Origin: Chitinophagales bacterium
Lineage (GTDB): Bacteria > Bacteroidota > Bacteroidia > Chitinophagales > JADIYW01
Reading direction: 5' to 3'
Length of the DNA: 42,296 bases
NCBI GenBank assembly: GCA_017984135.1
Contig: JAGNZZ010000001.1
Coordinates: 29,856 to 72,151 of the forward strand
The notes under the pieces were generated by a model. That model saw nothing but the letters and a program-made list of their open reading frames with translations, was not told the origin of the DNA and did no database searches. The translations under genes and the position numbers were made by a program. Below, piece after piece: positions 33,278 through 41,958 of the stretch. Within the stretch, counting starts at the first letter, position 1, and every line of letters starts with the position of its first letter.

Positions 33278-33889
33278 GTGAACAAACTTTTGTATATGAC
33301 TGAATTGTATAAAAAATCACTTAGTGATATATTTTTACAATTTTCAAACATTCCAATTTCTGAATTAGAAGAATTGGTGAATTTGTTTTCATTGCAAGAA
33401 TTCAAAAAAAAATCAATAATAATCGCACCCAACAACACAAGCGATATTAAATTATTTTTTGTTGTAAAAGGTTTAATTCGTATCTATTATCCTATAGGAG
33501 AACGGGAAGTAACGATAGACTTTAAAGAAGAAAATACTTTATTTGCAAATGGATTTACATTATTTACAAATCTGCCAAATATTGATTATTATGTAGCCTT
33601 GGAAGATGTAGTTTGTTTAGTTGCAGAATCAAATGAAATTGAAGTATTAGCATCGAAATATCATTCCATTGAACATTTAAACAGAAAAATAGTAGAAGCA
33701 TATTATGCATCTTATTTAATAACTAATTACAATAGTTTGTTTCTGTCAGCCGAAGAACGTTATTCCGTTTTTGTGCGTGATAGAGCCGCATTAATAAATC
33801 GATTGCCTTTAAAATACATAGCCACCTATTTAGGTATTAAACAAGAAACATTAAGCAGACTAAGGGCAAAAAAAATAATCACAATATGA
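33278..33889 (+). CDS. Crp/Fnr-family regulator 1 (tandem cluster)
   Basis: About 203 residues from a GTG at 33278, or 197 from the ATG at 33296. A cyclic-nucleotide-binding-like beta-barrel (KLFFVVKGLIRIYYPIGEREVTIDFKEENTLFANGF) is followed by a long dimer helix and a short helix-turn-helix, YIATYLGIKQETLSRLRAKK, at the extreme C-terminus. There is no wing beyond it, which is normal for short Bacteroidota members. The recognition helix has E-T-L-S-R, like FNR. No FNR Cys cluster. Closest in sequence to regulator 2, whose ATG overlaps this stop (ATGA). Confidence 0.92.
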   Translation: MNKLLYMTELYKKSLSDIFLQFSNIPISELEELVNLFSLQEFKKKSIIIAPNNTSDIKLFFVVKGLIRIYYPIGEREVTIDFKEENTLFANGFTLFTNLPNIDYYVALEDVVCLVAESNEIEVLASKYHSIEHLNRKIVEAYYASYLITNYNSLFLSAEERYSVFVRDRAALINRLPLKYIATYLGIKQETLSRLRAKKIITI

Positions 33890-34491
33890 GCAAAAAAGAC
33901 ATTGATATTGAATTATATAGAGAACAACTGAAACAGTATTTATTAAGATTATATCCTTCTACAAATACGGCTCAGTTGACTGATTTATGCAATCAATTCA
34001 CCTTTCATAAATTTGATAAACGACAAATGATCTTAAAAGCCGGTGAATTTTCAAATACGGTTTATTTTATCTGTAAAGGTTTAGTTCGAATATATTATGT
34101 CAAAGAAGATAAAGAAATTACGAATTGGTTTATTAAAGAAAATATGCTTTTTGCCGCAACTTATTCAATTTTAACTAATAATAATAACTATAGTAATTAC
34201 GAAGCATTAGAAGATACACACGTCATAAAATTAGATTATGATGTGATGGAATCTTTTTATGCCAAATACCATTCTTTAGAACATTTGGGCAGAAAAATTA
34301 TTGAAGCATATTATGGTGCATTTATGAAAAAAACTTTCGATGTGCTATTCCTTTCTGCTGAAGAACGGTACAACTTATTTGCTAAAGATAATTTAGATTT
34401 ATTAAACCGTGTTCCACTTCGCTTTATCGCTTCTTACCTAGGAATCACTCAAGAAACATTAAGCAGGCTTCGCTCTAAGTCAACAAAATAA
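33886..34491 (+). CDS. Crp/Fnr-family regulator 2 (tandem cluster)
   Basis: 201 residues. Same layout as its neighbour: effector barrel (TVYFICKGLVRIYYVKEDKEITNWFIKENMLFAATYS), dimer helix (YHSLEHLGRKIIEAYYGAFM), and C-terminal helix-turn-helix FIASYLGITQETLSRLRSK. It shares long stretches with regulator 1 (YHS-EHL-RK, LFLSAEERY, LGI-QETLSRLR), showing a local duplication. The 4-base stop/start overlap means the pair is translated together and could form heterodimers. Ligand unknown; haem/NO, redox or none are all open. Confidence 0.92.
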   Translation: MSKKDIDIELYREQLKQYLLRLYPSTNTAQLTDLCNQFTFHKFDKRQMILKAGEFSNTVYFICKGLVRIYYVKEDKEITNWFIKENMLFAATYSILTNNNNYSNYEALEDTHVIKLDYDVMESFYAKYHSLEHLGRKIIEAYYGAFMKKTFDVLFLSAEERYNLFAKDNLDLLNRVPLRFIASYLGITQETLSRLRSKSTK

Positions 34492-34539
34492 TATTTCATT
34501 TATTAAACAAAAATAGTATTTCATTTGTTAAGCAAATAG
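34492..34539 (+). repeat. Imperfect tandem duplication after regulator 2
   Basis: Unit 34492-34516 (TATTTCATTTATTAAACAAA plus AATAG) is repeated at 34517-34539 (TATTTCATTTGTTAAGCAAA plus TAG). The second unit runs into a hairpin AAGCAAA (34530-34536) / TTTGCTT (34542-34548). It may act as a weak terminator but lacks a T-run. Confidence 0.55.
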
Positions 34540-34672
34540 CTTTTGCTTTGCACCCATTTATAAATAATAGGCGTGTTTTGTTCTAATAAGTATGTAGTTT
34601 ATTTATAAGATTTTAAATTTTAAGTTAATATAAAATCATTGCGGTATGCATACAATATTAAAAGTTAATTCG

Positions 34673-34680
34673 TAAGTTTG
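34673..34680 (+). promoter_or_regulatory. Possible -7 element of regulator 3 (TAAGTTTG)
   Basis: Matches TAnnTTTG. It overlaps the upstream TTG start (34678), which supports translation from ATG 34696. A perfect 10-bp palindrome GTATGCATAC lies 19 bp upstream (34644-34653), where a regulator could bind. Confidence 0.4.
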
Positions 34681-34695
34681 AAAAACCCTCATGAA

Positions 34696-35319
34696 ATGAC
34701 TCAACGCAGTTTAAGCACGTTAGAACAACATGCCAAAGAATATCTAAAAAAAGCTCTACTTTCTACTGTTGAAATAGATGACACATCCATCCATTCATTA
34801 TTGGATTTATTTGAAATGATAACGTGTAAGAAAAACCAAATCATTATTAATGAAGGTGAAATTGCAGACTATTTTTATTTCATTTATAAAGGTATAGTTA
34901 GAGTTTATTACTATAAATCAGATAAAATAGTTATTGAACGATTTGAAAAAGAAGGTGGATTTTTTGGAGGTAATTTTACACATTTAACTAAAAAACCAGG
35001 CGTATATATTTATGAATCTGTAGAAGATGCACAACTTCTGAAAATTAAATATACAGACCTCGAAGAACTATGCAATAAATCCCATCAAGTAGAAAGACTA
35101 TATCGTGTAAATATGGAATTATTTCATGTGAATTATGTACACCATTTATCATTATATAAATCATTAAACACGGAAGAGAGATATGCAGAATTTATCAACA
35201 ACTATGGTGATGTGGCGAATCGTGTATCCTTAAAAGATGTAGCCAATTATTTAGAAATGACACCAGAAACATTAAGTAGGATACGTGCTAAATTTGACAA
35301 GATAAACAAGGCGAAGTAG
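34696..35319 (+). CDS. Crp/Fnr-family regulator 3 (tandem cluster)
   Basis: About 207 residues from ATG 34696; the frame also opens at a TTG (34678). Effector barrel segment ADYFYFIYKGIVRVYYYKSDKIVIERFEKEGGFFGGNFTHL, then a dimer helix and the C-terminal helix-turn-helix VSLKDVANYLEMTPETLSRIRAKF. It pairs with regulator 4 in sequence (EERYAEFI/EERYSQFI, LKDVANYL-MTPETLSRIR-K) and differs from regulators 1 and 2. E-T-L-S-R is kept in the recognition helix. No Fe-S Cys cluster visible. 186 bp after regulator 2, so a separate promoter is likely. Confidence 0.92.
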   Translation: MTQRSLSTLEQHAKEYLKKALLSTVEIDDTSIHSLLDLFEMITCKKNQIIINEGEIADYFYFIYKGIVRVYYYKSDKIVIERFEKEGGFFGGNFTHLTKKPGVYIYESVEDAQLLKIKYTDLEELCNKSHQVERLYRVNMELFHVNYVHHLSLYKSLNTEERYAEFINNYGDVANRVSLKDVANYLEMTPETLSRIRAKFDKINKAK

Positions 35320-35343
35320 CCACATTTCTACATTAAATTTTTG

Positions 35344-35351
35344 TATATTTG
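35344..35351 (+). promoter_or_regulatory. Possible -7 element of regulator 4 (TATATTTG)
   Basis: Exact TAnnTTTG match 14 bases before the ATG at 35366, within the 46-bp gap after regulator 3. No TTG at the -33 distance, so strength is uncertain. Confidence 0.4.
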
Positions 35352-35365
35352 AATAACGTAAACAA

Positions 35366-36007
35366 ATGCCAAGTAGAACAGATATCTTATTAGAACAAAA
35401 TGCTAAATCTAACTTAATAGATAGGTTTTCTGCTAATGTAAATTTAAGCCCGGAAGAAATTCAGAAAGTAAACGCCAATATTCAATTTCAAAAAATAAAA
35501 AAAAATCAATTAATTAGCAGTGGTGTCAATGAGCCAGAAACATACTATTATTTTATTTATTCAGGTGTTGTAAAAATATATTACTATAAAAATGATCAAA
35601 TGATTGTAGAACGCTTTGAAAAAGAAAATGGCGTTTTTGGCGGTAATTTTACCAATCTTTTCAACCACGATGAATATTATAATTACGAAGCTGTTGAAAA
35701 TGTTGTCTTAATCAAACTTAAATATACTGATTTAATTAGTTTATGTAAACAATATCATGCCATTGAAAGTTTGTATCGAGTTATGTTGGAGTCATTTATT
35801 TCCGTTTATTTAAAACGATTAACTACTGTAAAATCTTTAACTGCTGAAGAACGATATAGTCAATTTATTGAAATTAATGGCGATTTGATGAATCGGGTAA
35901 ACCTTAAAGATGTTGCCAATTATTTAGATATGACACCAGAAACGTTAAGCCGGATTCGCTCTAAATATGATAAATATATACGAAAACAAATAGTTTCCAC
36001 TCTTTGA
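35366..36007 (+). CDS. Crp/Fnr-family regulator 4 (tandem cluster)
   Basis: 213 residues. Effector barrel (ETYYYFIYSGVVKIYYYKNDQMIVERFEKENGVFGGNFTNL), dimer helix (YHAIESLYRVMLESFISVYL) and helix-turn-helix VNLKDVANYLDMTPETLSRIRSKYDK near the C-terminus, no wing. Clear paralogue of regulator 3. As in the others, the helix carries E-T-L-S-R, the FNR-type half-site reader. Its position 1.9 kb before the nirK operon and the Fnr-like boxes there make it a candidate regulator of that operon; this is inference. Confidence 0.92.
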   Translation: MPSRTDILLEQNAKSNLIDRFSANVNLSPEEIQKVNANIQFQKIKKNQLISSGVNEPETYYYFIYSGVVKIYYYKNDQMIVERFEKENGVFGGNFTNLFNHDEYYNYEAVENVVLIKLKYTDLISLCKQYHAIESLYRVMLESFISVYLKRLTTVKSLTAEERYSQFIEINGDLMNRVNLKDVANYLDMTPETLSRIRSKYDKYIRKQIVSTL

Positions 36008-37798: not shown

Positions 37799-37856
37799 AT
37801 GATAATCGTCATGTTTTTCGTTGATTACTGTCATATCAACGCTTGATGACTATCAT
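37799..37856 (+). promoter_or_regulatory. Three phased Fnr-type operator boxes upstream of the nirK operon
   Basis: Three dyads of 14 bp: ATGAT-AATC-GTCAT (37799-37812), TTGAT-TACT-GTCAT (37821-37834) and TTGAT-GACT-ATCAT (37843-37856). Starts are spaced exactly 22 bp, two DNA turns. They resemble the FNR consensus TTGAT-N4-ATCAA (7, 8 and 9 of 10 positions). The last box is centred at 37849.5, about 40 bp upstream of the expected transcription start. An inverted ATCAA-CGC-TTGAT joins boxes 2 and 3. Binding by the four upstream Crp/Fnr proteins is inference. Confidence 0.72.
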
Positions 37857-37878: not shown

Positions 37879-37886
37879 TAATTTTG
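37879..37886 (+). promoter_or_regulatory. -7 element of the porin-nirK promoter (TAATTTTG)
   Basis: Exact TAnnTTTG match, 24 bases before the porin ATG at 37911. No TTG lies 19-21 bases upstream; the third Fnr-like box occupies that region, as expected for an activator-dependent promoter. Confidence 0.6.
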
Positions 37887-37910: not shown

Positions 37911-39257
37911 ATGAAAAACCAAAGCCAAACAAAAATAATTCTTTCACTTATAGGCATGTTGTTGTTTTTTCAAAACACACAAGCACAAGATTCCATCGTT
38001 AAACATCATAATTTTGTAATTTCTACAAATATTAGACCCAAATTTGAATTGCGTCATGGATATTATAAACCGTTGCAAACTGGTGAAAAGTTAGCCGCAT
38101 ATATTAGTCAACGCAATCGAATAAGATTAAAATATGCGTATAAAGATCTTTTTTCAGTCCAACTTACACCTCAACACGTTTTTATTTGGGGTCAAGATGG
38201 ATTAACACAAGGCGCATCTACATCCAATAGCATTTCATTTTTTGATGTATGGATAAAATTTCAACCAAAAGATTTTATAGCATTCCAAATTGGTCGTCAA
38301 GTAATATCATTAGATGACGAACGTTTCTTTGGAGAATTAGATTGGGCGCAAGGTGGAAGAGCTCACGACGCACTTTCTGTACAGTTTAAACGTAAAAAAT
38401 TAGATTTAAAAACGTATTTTGCTTTCAATCAAAATTATAAAGAGCTTTATAGTAATAATTTAGGTAATACTTCTGGAAATCTATATACTTCAAAAAATGC
38501 AACACCTTATAAATGGATGCAAACAGCTTGGGCTGGAGTAAATATCAATCAAAAAAATAAGGTAAGTTTCTTGTTCACTAACTTAGGATTTCAAGATGCT
38601 AAAACGGCAACCGATACAGTAAAAAATCATTTTTCACATACATTAGGTGCAAATTATTTCTACAAAGATGAAAATTGGAAATTCAACGTATCTGCTTACT
38701 ATCAAACCGGTAAAAACCAAATGGGATTAAAAACCAACGCGTATTTACTTGCGTTTTTATTAGATAGAAAAATTGGAAAAAAATGGAATATAGGAATTGG
38801 AACTGATTTTGTAAGTGGAAACAACGTTGGTGTAGCACCTAAAAAATATAATAATGCTTTTGTACCTTATTTTGGAACAAATCATAAATTCTATGGCAAT
38901 ATGGATTATTTTTATGCAGGAAAAGCACATAAAAATACAGGCTTAGCAGATCTTTACGCGCAAGTAGGTTTTAAACCAACAGAAAAAACAGCAATTAACT
39001 TAGCATTTCATCAATTTTTAACACCCAATCAAATTAAATCAAGTATCAAAAATTATTCTTGTAATCTTGGACAAGAAATAGATTTAAAATTCAACTATAA
39101 GTTTCTTAAATTTGCAAACTTTTTAGGAGGATATTCAATCTATGTTTCTACTCCAGCCATCTTATATTTAAAAGATGTAACTAAATCAGCTCCAGTTCAA
39201 CATTGGTTGTGGTTCGAAATAGACGTAAATCTAGATATATTCAATTATAAATTTTAA
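37911..39257 (+). CDS. Alginate-export-type outer-membrane porin
   Basis: About 448 residues from MKNQSQTKIILSLIGMLLFF; cleavage expected after QNTQAQ. The mature part is a long series of amphipathic strands ending in an aromatic/Phe residue (NLDIFNYKF), as in outer-membrane barrels. RNRIRLKYAYKDLFSVQLTPQ, FQIGRQVISLDDERFFG and WAQGGRAHDALSVQFKRKKL match the alginate-export (AlgE-like) porin family. In this context it may let nitrite, or copper, into the periplasm rather than export alginate; that is a guess. First gene behind the Fnr-like boxes, 27 bp before nirK. Confidence 0.85.
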   Translation: MKNQSQTKIILSLIGMLLFFQNTQAQDSIVKHHNFVISTNIRPKFELRHGYYKPLQTGEKLAAYISQRNRIRLKYAYKDLFSVQLTPQHVFIWGQDGLTQGASTSNSISFFDVWIKFQPKDFIAFQIGRQVISLDDERFFGELDWAQGGRAHDALSVQFKRKKLDLKTYFAFNQNYKELYSNNLGNTSGNLYTSKNATPYKWMQTAWAGVNINQKNKVSFLFTNLGFQDAKTATDTVKNHFSHTLGANYFYKDENWKFNVSAYYQTGKNQMGLKTNAYLLAFLLDRKIGKKWNIGIGTDFVSGNNVGVAPKKYNNAFVPYFGTNHKFYGNMDYFYAGKAHKNTGLADLYAQVGFKPTEKTAINLAFHQFLTPNQIKSSIKNYSCNLGQEIDLKFNYKFLKFANFLGGYSIYVSTPAILYLKDVTKSAPVQHWLWFEIDVNLDIFNYKF

Positions 39258-39284: not shown

Positions 39285-40316
39285 ATGTCAACAAAACAAA
39301 TTGCAATCGGACTTTTACTAGCACTATCGGTAAGTGCATGTAAAACAAATTCAGAATCGAATGCTGGTTCTGGATCAGTAGCTATCGATATGGTAGCAGA
39401 AGGAACCCCAACCGAAATTGAAGTAACAGGTGCACCAAAAGTGCCAGCACCAATTGGAGATAGAGCGCCTAAAAAAGTTATCGTAAAATTAGAAACAACA
39501 GAAATTGAAACAGAAATCGCAGATGGTCAAAAATATACTTTTTGGACATTTAACAACACTGTTCCAGGAAGCTTTATCCGTGTACGCGAAGGCGACGAAG
39601 TAGAATTGCAATTAAAAAATGCAGCAAACAGTGTAATGCCTCATAATATTGACTTACATGCTGTAAATGGTCCTGGTGGTGGCGCTGAAGCAACTTTTGC
39701 TGCTCCTGGAAAAGAGGCAACATTTACGTTTAAAGCTTTAAATCCAGGATTATATGTGTATCATTGTGCTGCACCTCCAGTGCCTATGCATATTGGAAAC
39801 GGTATGTATGGTTTAATTCTTGTAGAACCTGCAGGTGGTTTGAAAAAAGTAGATCGTGAATATTATATCATGCAAGGTGAATTCTATACTAAAATGGGTA
39901 AAAATGGTACTTTAGAGTTTGATAACGATAAAGCTGTAGCCGAAAATCCTGATTATGTACTATTCAATGGTAAAAAAGGTTCTATGTTAGGGGCTAATGT
40001 ATTAGAAGCTAAAGTAGGCGAAACCGTTCGTTTATTCGTAGGTAATGGTGGTCCAAATTTAGTATCTTCATTCCACGTAATTGGAGAAATTTTTGATAAT
40101 GTACATCAAGAAGGTGGCTCTAGTGTATCACACAATATTCAAACAACTATTATTCCTGCCGGTGGTTCTGCTATTGTAGAATTTAAAGTAGAAGTACCAG
40201 GTGTTTATAATATCGTTGACCACTCTTTGTCTAGAACTTTTAATAAAGGTTCTTTAGGCCAATTAAAAGTAGTAGGTGACGAAAATGCAAAAGTATTTAA
40301 AAAAGGAAAACACTAA
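39285..40316 (+). CDS. nirK: Copper-containing nitrite reductase, predicted lipoprotein
   Basis: 343 residues. It reduces nitrite to nitric oxide, the defining step of denitrification. Two cupredoxin domains. Type 1 copper ligands: His120, Cys161, His169, Met174. Type 2 ligands: His125, His160 and His313. Catalytic Asp123 (PHNIDLH) and His264 (SSFHVIGE) are also present, so it should be active. The short [19 protein letters not shown] signal with Cys19 predicts a lipid anchor, as in the AniA-type enzymes of Neisseria, which it resembles through [11 protein letters not shown]. Followed after 8 bp by a nirV-like gene. Likely controlled by the upstream Fnr-type boxes. Confidence 0.95.
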
Positions 40317-40324
40317 AAAAATAA

Positions 40325-41155
40325 ATGAGATTAATGTCACGATATTTGATCATAATCTTTTCCTTATCATTGGGCTTTGGTTCTTGCAATCGCACAGAAC
40401 CAAAGCCTATTAATGAGGATATTTTGGATGTGAAAATCCAGTTAATACAAACTTCTACAAAAATGGTTAAAGTAGATGGTGGTAACTATCAGCCATTTTA
40501 TGGAACGAATGACTCATTGGTTTTTGTTAAATCTTTTATGATCGATGAACATCAAGTCACCAATGCCGACTTTCTGGAATTTGTTAAAAAAAATCCGCAG
40601 TGGCGTCGTTCTCAAGCAAAAGGCATATTTGTGGATAGTTCCTATTTAAAAAACTGGGTGGCTGATACCATTTTGCCTAAAAATGCAAATCCAAATGCGC
40701 CAGTTTGTAATATTTCATGGTTTGCCGCTAAAGCATACGCTACATCTGTTCAGAAAAGATTACCAACTTTAGATGAATGGGAATATTTAGCCATGGCTGA
40801 CGAAGAAGTACCGAATGCAAGGAAAAAGAAAGCGTATTCTGATAATATTGTAGATTTATACTTAGTTCGCGACAGACAATTCAATTCTGTGAAAAAATCA
40901 TCACCAAATTATTGGGGCGTTTATAATGTTTTTGATTTAGTATGGGAATGGACAGAAGACTTCAATTCAGTGCTTGTTACCGGTGACTCTCGTAGTGGTA
41001 AGTTTGATGATAAAAACTTAGTTTGTGCTGCTGGAGCAACAAATGCGACAGACGTGTTAAATTATGCTGCTTTTATGCGTTTTGGAATCAGAACTAGCTT
41101 AAAAGCAAATTATACCGTGGCCAATTTAGGTTTTAGATGTGCTAAAGATTTATAA
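40325..41155 (+). CDS. NirV-like formylglycine-generating-enzyme (SUMF1) family lipoprotein
   Basis: 276 residues. Lipoprotein signal ending LGFGSCNRT. The rest is the FGE/SUMF1 fold: KMVKVDGGNYQPFYG, FMIDEHQVTNADFLEFV, PVCNISWFAAKAYATSVQKRLPTLDEWEYLA, VFDLVWEWTEDF and a terminal NLGFRCAKDL. In several denitrifiers a homologue called NirV follows nirK, with an unproven role. The true FGE copper-binding/oxidising Cys pair is not evident, so formylglycine formation is unlikely. Spacing of 8 bp shows an operon with nirK. Confidence 0.85.
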   Translation: MRLMSRYLIIIFSLSLGFGSCNRTEPKPINEDILDVKIQLIQTSTKMVKVDGGNYQPFYGTNDSLVFVKSFMIDEHQVTNADFLEFVKKNPQWRRSQAKGIFVDSSYLKNWVADTILPKNANPNAPVCNISWFAAKAYATSVQKRLPTLDEWEYLAMADEEVPNARKKKAYSDNIVDLYLVRDRQFNSVKKSSPNYWGVYNVFDLVWEWTEDFNSVLVTGDSRSGKFDDKNLVCAAGATNATDVLNYAAFMRFGIRTSLKANYTVANLGFRCAKDL

Positions 41156-41373: not shown

Positions 41374-41958
41374 ATGAAAAGATATAATATAATTTTAGCT
41401 TGTTTATTATTTTTTAGTTCTTGTAATTTCAAAAACTCAGAGAATCTAAAAAAATTACCTTCAGAGTCGATATTTCATTTAACATCTGATTGGCAAAATC
41501 AGTATGGTGAAACCCTAAAATTAAAAGAATTAAAAGGAAAAACATTAGTGGTAGTCATGATTTACACCACATGTAAATCAGCATGTCCAATTTTAGTGGC
41601 GGATATGAAAATGATTAAAGAAAAAATCGATAAAAATAATTTGAAGGATGTATCTCTAGTACTTGTAAGTATTGATCCTGAAACAGATACTCCAGAACGA
41701 TTGGCAGAATTTGCAAAAAAAGGAAAAATGACAGAGCCATTTTGGGTATTTCTTCGTGGAAATCTGGAATCCACTCAAGAATTTGCAAATGTCTTATCTA
41801 TGAAATATAAAAAAATATCTCCAGTAGATTTTTCTCACTCCAATATTATTAGCATTTTTAGTCCGGATGGTGCATTAGTTAGCCAAGAAGAAGGAACGAG
41901 TATTAATACTCAAAAGGTTGCTGACAAAGTAAATGAAACGGTAAAATTAAACCGTTAA
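41374..41958 (+). CDS. SCO1/SenC family copper protein
   Basis: 194 residues. Lipoprotein-type start (IILACLLFFSSCNF), then a thioredoxin-like fold with the copper-binding C-x3-C (TTCKSACPILVADM) and the ligand His in VDFSHSNIIS; VSIDPETDTPERLAEFA is also typical. SCO proteins deliver copper or act as thiol reductants for cytochrome oxidase. Here the neighbouring copper nitrite reductase is a plausible client. A 218-bp gap holding a degenerate repeat separates it from the nirV-like gene, so it may have its own promoter. Confidence 0.92.
   Translation: MKRYNIILACLLFFSSCNFKNSENLKKLPSESIFHLTSDWQNQYGETLKLKELKGKTLVVVMIYTTCKSACPILVADMKMIKEKIDKNNLKDVSLVLVSIDPETDTPERLAEFAKKGKMTEPFWVFLRGNLESTQEFANVLSMKYKKISPVDFSHSNIISIFSPDGALVSQEEGTSINTQKVADKVNETVKLNR

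Follow-up and report, generated by a model that had tools for sequence, protein, structure and literature searches.

Three dyads in exact 22-bp register precede the porin-nirK-nirV operon of a Chitinophagales bacterium (genome G000), and we consider it fairly probable that they are class II Crp/Fnr activator sites with further dimers stacked upstream, the binder most likely being a cysteine-bearing Fnr protein (L180) of the same genome. The array lies in a stretch of 42,296 nucleotides that was analysed as a whole and is called the window below. Across the order, pairs of such dyads are the norm and the triple is an uncommon extension. Judged from sequence, the 22-bp arrangement appears to be a promoter layout that is standard in this bacterial group yet undescribed, and general for the micro-oxic respiration genes of the order.

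The three dyads have the form TGAY-N4-RTCA with start-to-start steps of 22 and 22 bp, and the dimer-site symmetry TGA-N6-TCA is present upstream of the porin as three exact TGAYNNNNRTCA dyads (Table 1). They occupy a 156-bp intergenic region between a LolD-type ABC gene (end 37754) and the porin, in which TAnnTTTG occurs once, as TAATTTTG. The last TCA of dyad 3 is 23 bp from this element, and the centre of dyad 3 (37849.5) is 29.5 bp upstream of its T, which gives -41.5 on the assumption that the T of TAnnTTTG is -12. An earlier note on this DNA had reported dyads at 37799, 37821 and 37843 at an exact 22-bp interval, with half-sites TTGAT or ATGAT and ATCAT or GTCAT, a TAATTTTG element at 37879-37886 lacking a -33 TTG, and a third box about 40 bp upstream of the expected start; all of this is borne out by the sequence, where GAT occupies the -33 TTG position upstream of TAATTTTG. 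Lack of the -33 TTG is in keeping with an activator-dependent promoter. The canonical FNR box TTGAT-N4-ATCAA is not matched, box 3 having one mismatch to it, box 2 two and box 1 more than two. For the porin, ATG 37911 is the likeliest start; the listed TTG 37884 falls within the -7 element.

Table 1. Operator, promoter and gene features discussed in the text, in window coordinates
Feature	Position	Strand	Remarks
Four consecutive Crp/Fnr-family genes without N-terminal cysteine clusters	33278..36007	+	candidate binders, not favoured
Dyad 1, ATGATAATCGTCAT	37799..37812	+	expected centre about -85.5
Dyad 2, TTGATTACTGTCAT	37821..37834	+	expected centre about -63.5; exactly 22 bp from dyad 1
Dyad 3, TTGATGACTATCAT	37843..37856	+	class II position, about -41.5
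-7 element TAATTTTG, Bacteroidota sigma-A promoter without -33 TTG	37879..37886	+	
Porin, outer-membrane, Alginate_exp family	37911..39257	+	
nirK, copper nitrite reductase	39285..40316	+	TIGR02376 351 bits, cut-off 296
NirV-type FGE-sulfatase domain protein	40325..41155	+	PF03781
SCO1/SenC-type protein	41374..41958	+	PF02630; follows nirV in related loci L024-L031

Chance is a poor source for such an array. Exact TGAYNNNNRTCA dyads number three in the intergenic region, where 20,000 dinucleotide shuffles gave 0.044 on average and never reproduced the triple, and when the whole window was shuffled 1,000 times a 22-bp pair of any kind appeared in one shuffle and a triple in none. Taken singly, Fnr-like boxes show no enrichment in the window (77 versus 80.6 expected for a loose consensus with 2 mismatches), so the evidence is the exact phased array and not the single boxes. 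As a predictor of the G000 regulon, the single-dyad pattern was tried and set aside as too noisy (43 forward and 27 reverse matches, versus 20 and 25 for the control).

Within the genus the array is conserved. The porin-nirK locus of G005 (L024), whose nirK is 92-94% identical, carries ATGACTTCTGTCAT, TTGACTACTATCAT and TTGACGACTGTCAT at 22/22/23, the first of them (L024:5490) being a counterpart of dyad 1 with changed inner bases that is also kept in the two G003 loci (L197, L198). The syntenic locus of G003, in which lolD is followed by the porin, lacks an adjoining nirK but has three dyads at 22/22/23 ahead of the porin gene, and the divergent nirK of this genome, on a different contig from the porin, has three dyads of its own at 22/22/23. 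Throughout the triple-dyad arrays of the genus the outer TGA/TCA bases are constant while the inner bases and most linkers have changed. In an alignment of six genus promoters, which joins these arrays with the norCB and cco promoters of G000, TAnnTTTG and the TGA/TCA of the proximal two dyads are among the few invariant columns. Porin-nirK loci from beyond the genus show a single exact dyad apiece in L026-L031 and, upstream of the operon, none in L025, which makes the nirK triple a genus-level feature; the earlier note had looked to homologous nirK loci for the 22-bp phasing, and this expectation holds for G005 and G003 and fails in the other families (L025-L031). The linker GTTTTTCG between dyads 1 and 2 (window 37813-37820) is identical in G000 and G005 and also occurs in the nirK pair of G130, from a distant family (G130:C53:6657-6721); other linkers have diverged.

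The wider layout emerged from pattern searches in related genomes, with spacing statistics drawn from the searches and the matches listed (75 pairs, and 150 pairs followed by TAnnTTTG). When 199 relatives were searched for any two dyads separated by 0-30 bp, matches were well above a reversed-pattern control, and the 22-bp period accounted for 38 of the 75 pairs among the matches listed, the next commonest spacing for 5. A 22-bp pair with TAnnTTTG within 10-40 bp was found in 143 of 398 genomes of the order, the reversed-pattern control giving zero, and among the 150 matches listed the gap from pair to TAnnTTTG was 23 bp in 121, 24 bp in 13 and 22 bp in 6; since many order-wide matches are orthologous promoters, these figures are to be read as strong effects and not as exact probabilities. 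The genes downstream of the pairs vary, which argues against one inherited promoter. Single dyads whose gap is near 23 are numerous too (1,050 matches versus 293 for the control in 150 genomes; the gap is exactly 23 in 63/150 among the matches listed), so that pairs are a frequent subset of them, and triples at any spacing of 18-26 bp were found in 24/398 genomes.

Beyond the order the layout thins out rapidly. In a phylum-wide sample, the strict pair plus TAnnTTTG was present in 13/296 genomes, namely in 8/16 genomes of the order, in 4 more of the class and in 1 of about 223 belonging to other classes. A further 38 genomes, reached via other nirK loci and belonging mainly to Flavobacterium, Chryseobacterium and Kaistella, with some Proteobacteria and others, yielded only one 22-bp pair among the matches listed; it belongs to Flavobacterium sp. 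1355, has a gap of 23 and adjoins genes for a receiver-type regulator and Hsp20. This near absence from other classes and from the nirK-reached genomes marks the layout as a lineage-restricted architecture. The exception from another class (G654:C1, L287-L290) has five strict matches, one of them before a CcoI-type ATPase gene, and differs in this from the approximately 222 others sampled.

Respiratory genes are prominent among the targets. In G000 the cco cluster, directly downstream of the cysteine-bearing fnr gene, has two dyads at 22 bp with a gap of 23, and norCB has two at 23 bp with a gap of 23, an arrangement that G005 norCB keeps. In relatives, pairs are followed by genes for cbb3 oxidase, CcoI-type ATPase, norCB, c-type cytochromes and a porin homologous to that of the window, and further by Usp, Hsp20, Rrf2, PAS kinase, PEP synthase-type, AsnA-type and RIC/ScdA genes, a list that we take to be typical of an Fnr-type regulon for micro-oxic conditions and nitrogen oxides. 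What had been put forward as a layout of the nirK operon is thus present before porin-nirK and is no nirK speciality. Some divergent gene pairs share one dyad pair (L141, L205, L209, G115, G135:C22, G203:C20 and G384:C7) with 22-24 bp, mostly 23, to a TAnnTTTG on each side, so that the dyad proximal for one gene would be distal for its partner.

We infer, rather than observe, activation, cooperation between dimers, the signal and the identity of the binder. The three dyads would bind Crp/Fnr-family activator dimers stacked on one face of the DNA, with the proximal dimer at about -41.5 activating RNA polymerase in class II style and standing in for the absent -33 contact. Its neighbours at about -63.5 and -85.5 would sit side by side, 22 bp being about 2.1 helical turns, and could raise occupancy or contact the polymerase alpha subunits. 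The porin-nirK-nirV operon would thereby be switched on at low oxygen and/or with nitric oxide, most likely by the cysteine-bearing Fnr L180, with an NO-sensing Crp/Fnr using the same box as the main alternative. In 115 aligned promoters, the -33 TTG is not enriched at its position; the core of the distal dyad is rich in A and the linker rich in T, features that could serve dimer packing or alpha contacts. The multi-site activation proposed earlier stands as far as multi-dyad Crp/Fnr-type operators in class II position are concerned, their pair-to-TAnnTTTG distance recurring in many genomes, and the activation itself is something that we infer.

G000 encodes 11 proteins with a cNMP domain, and sequence does not single out one of them for the sites. 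L180 (contig C41) has cysteines at 10, 13 and 22 (a CxxC and a further N-terminal Cys), the PF00027 and PF13545 domains and a Crp-type HTH; its best NCBIfam model is Fnr, yet it falls below the curated cut-off of that model, and its recognition-helix Glu and Arg align with those of E. coli FNR. In G000, G003, G004, G005 and G168 the tandem-dyad cco promoter comes directly after a cysteine-bearing fnr gene, and the genus member G002 has neither an Fnr match at 1e-25 nor a 22-bp pair. Across 199 relatives the association between a close Fnr ortholog and tandem promoters is weak (20/46 versus 48/153, p = 0.09), in part because receiver-Crp regulators adjoin such promoters in other families, and binomial values for it overstate significance because many matches are orthologous cco promoters. 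The earlier note had suggested footprinting the four neighbouring Crp/Fnr proteins on this region; the idea that they are the natural binders fares badly, since they are without cysteine ligands and have no counterpart beside the triple-dyad nirK or porin of G003. Encoded directly upstream of the tandem-dyad cco promoter, L180 is a better candidate.

In other families, receiver-cNMP-HTH_Crp fusions and PAS histidine kinases are encoded side by side at cbb3 oxidase loci, namely L281:3910-6346 (G042), L282:4219-6621 (G054) and L283:10616-12831 (G028), where the promoters have a 22-bp dyad pair with a 23-bp gap. This two-gene set resembles the FixLJ/FixK circuit.

A lesser but serious possibility is that the architecture is the same and the nirK array is bound by a dedicated NO- or nitrite-sensing Crp/Fnr protein (one of the local four, L181 or L182), with Fnr serving cco only. 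The four Crp/Fnr genes, situated 2-4.5 kb upstream, have syntenic counterparts in G005 (L024:1021-3603, 61-80% identity), their ETLSR recognition helices keep the Glu and Arg expected for TGA, an L181 homologue is found two genes upstream of porin-nirK in L025, a cysteine-bearing Crp/Fnr is the last gene of the G130 nirK operon, and in Proteobacteria an FNR-like box serves the NO-responsive DNR (PMC1274295). Against such a sensor, the triple-dyad nirK and porin of G003 have no local Crp/Fnr gene beside them; the cco and nor promoters of G000 share box and geometry with nirK, so that the site separates no two factors. As general nirK partners the four local genes were rejected, their linkage being confined to the window and L024. 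A dyad, TTGACATGAATCAA at window 33227, precedes the four-gene cluster and overlaps the end of the upstream reading frame, and its G005 counterpart is TTGACTTGAATCAA (L024:891).

It is unlikely, in our estimate, that the class II site at -41.5 is the effective one while the upstream dyads damp or limit expression. Upstream-bound FNR has been reported to lower expression at some E. coli promoters, yfiD being down-regulated in this way, and the order has many single dyads with the same gap of 23 (the 63/150 peak given above). However, the extra dyad stands at one fixed spacing across many unrelated promoters, and the gap is 23 in 81% of pair promoters versus 42% of listed dyad promoters generally, for which a narrower gap range was searched; a fixed spacing and a stricter -7 distance suit co-operation at least equally. 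Crp/Fnr proteins can also repress when their sites overlap the promoter, but a repressor operator that excludes RNA polymerase is very improbable here, as 23 bp separate the end of the array from the -7 element, no -33 contact is present and the distance agrees with the activation geometry of the order. Finally, duplication could make 22-bp units and the GTTTTTCG linker recurs in G000, G005 and G130, yet a chance similarity or a decaying short tandem repeat of no regulatory role can practically be dismissed, given the absence of the triple from all 20,000 shuffles, the retention of TGA/TCA and spacing while inner dyad bases and other linkers diverged, and the recurrence across the order against a control of zero.

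The proposed class II activation by stacked dimers has clear relatives among known systems. With E. coli class II FNR/CRP promoters (site at -41.5) it shares the TGAT-N4-ATCA dyad form, a centre that precedes the first T of the -10/-7 element by 29.5 bp, and a weak or absent upstream promoter element; unlike them, it has two or three dyads recurring in strict 22-bp register, the Bacteroidota -7 element TAnnTTTG, and boxes reading WTGAY-N4-RTCAT instead of TTGAT-N4-ATCAA. The tandem-bound FNR/CRP (class III) promoters of E. coli, reportedly treated by Barnard, Green and Busby in 2003, are similar in having more than one dimer per promoter with one at the class II position. Those cases are individual promoters with assorted spacings, whereas one spacing and one promoter distance hold here across an order and many targets. 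In denitrifying Proteobacteria, the DNR/NnrR regulons have FNR-like boxes before nirK, norB and related genes, and the box before nirK is the likeness to the window; the accessible part of that source describes no tandem 22-bp layout (PMC1274295), and the pairs of the order, unlike those regulons, extend to cco, Usp and Hsp20 genes. HcpR2 of Bacteroides and Porphyromonas is likewise a Crp/Fnr family factor for nitrogen-oxide stress in Bacteroidota, with hcp as its regulon, but its motif GTAACnnnnGTTAC, as given in PMC1274295, is not matched by the TGAY-N4-RTCA boxes of the window. Tandem FNR/CRP promoters in E. coli and, from PMC1274295, Fnr-like boxes before nirK in Proteobacteria are known already. 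Neither the fixed 22/23-bp layout nor Fnr operators in this part of Bacteroidota were described in the literature searched, which left out most subscription papers, in agreement with the earlier note, to which such a layout in Bacteroidota was not known.

Bacteroidota are common nitrite reducers in wastewater and soil, and to our knowledge the control of their denitrification and micro-oxic respiration is little described. In G000, nirK and norCB are present and no NosZ match in the whole genome reaches the family cut-off, which suggests that denitrification would end at N2O; the proposed switch would accordingly bear on N2O release. We envision the rule of dyad, 10 bp, dyad, 23 bp and TAnnTTTG as a sharp genome-wide predictor of these regulons, and the layout points to a candidate regulator. 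Promoters with one, two and three dimers would form a natural series for how stacked activators set a response. More tentatively, and with the feeling that it is more apt to fail than to hold, we propose that the Fnr-type activation unit of the order may be a co-operative stack of at least two dimers in exact 22-bp register, shared interchangeably by cysteine-bearing Fnr and a PAS-kinase-driven receiver-Crp fusion, and that extra dimers, as in the nirK triple, may tune the threshold or sharpness of the anaerobic-respiration switch.

Other fixed spacings are seen in other lineages: a dyad pair with a 19-bp period (for example TGATTGTAATCACAAGTATTGATTACAGTCA) is common to Flavobacterium genomes G688, G691, G697, G698, G700, G704 and G706, and a pair with a 16-bp period is common to the Chryseobacterium and Kaistella genomes G678, G679, G681 and G684.
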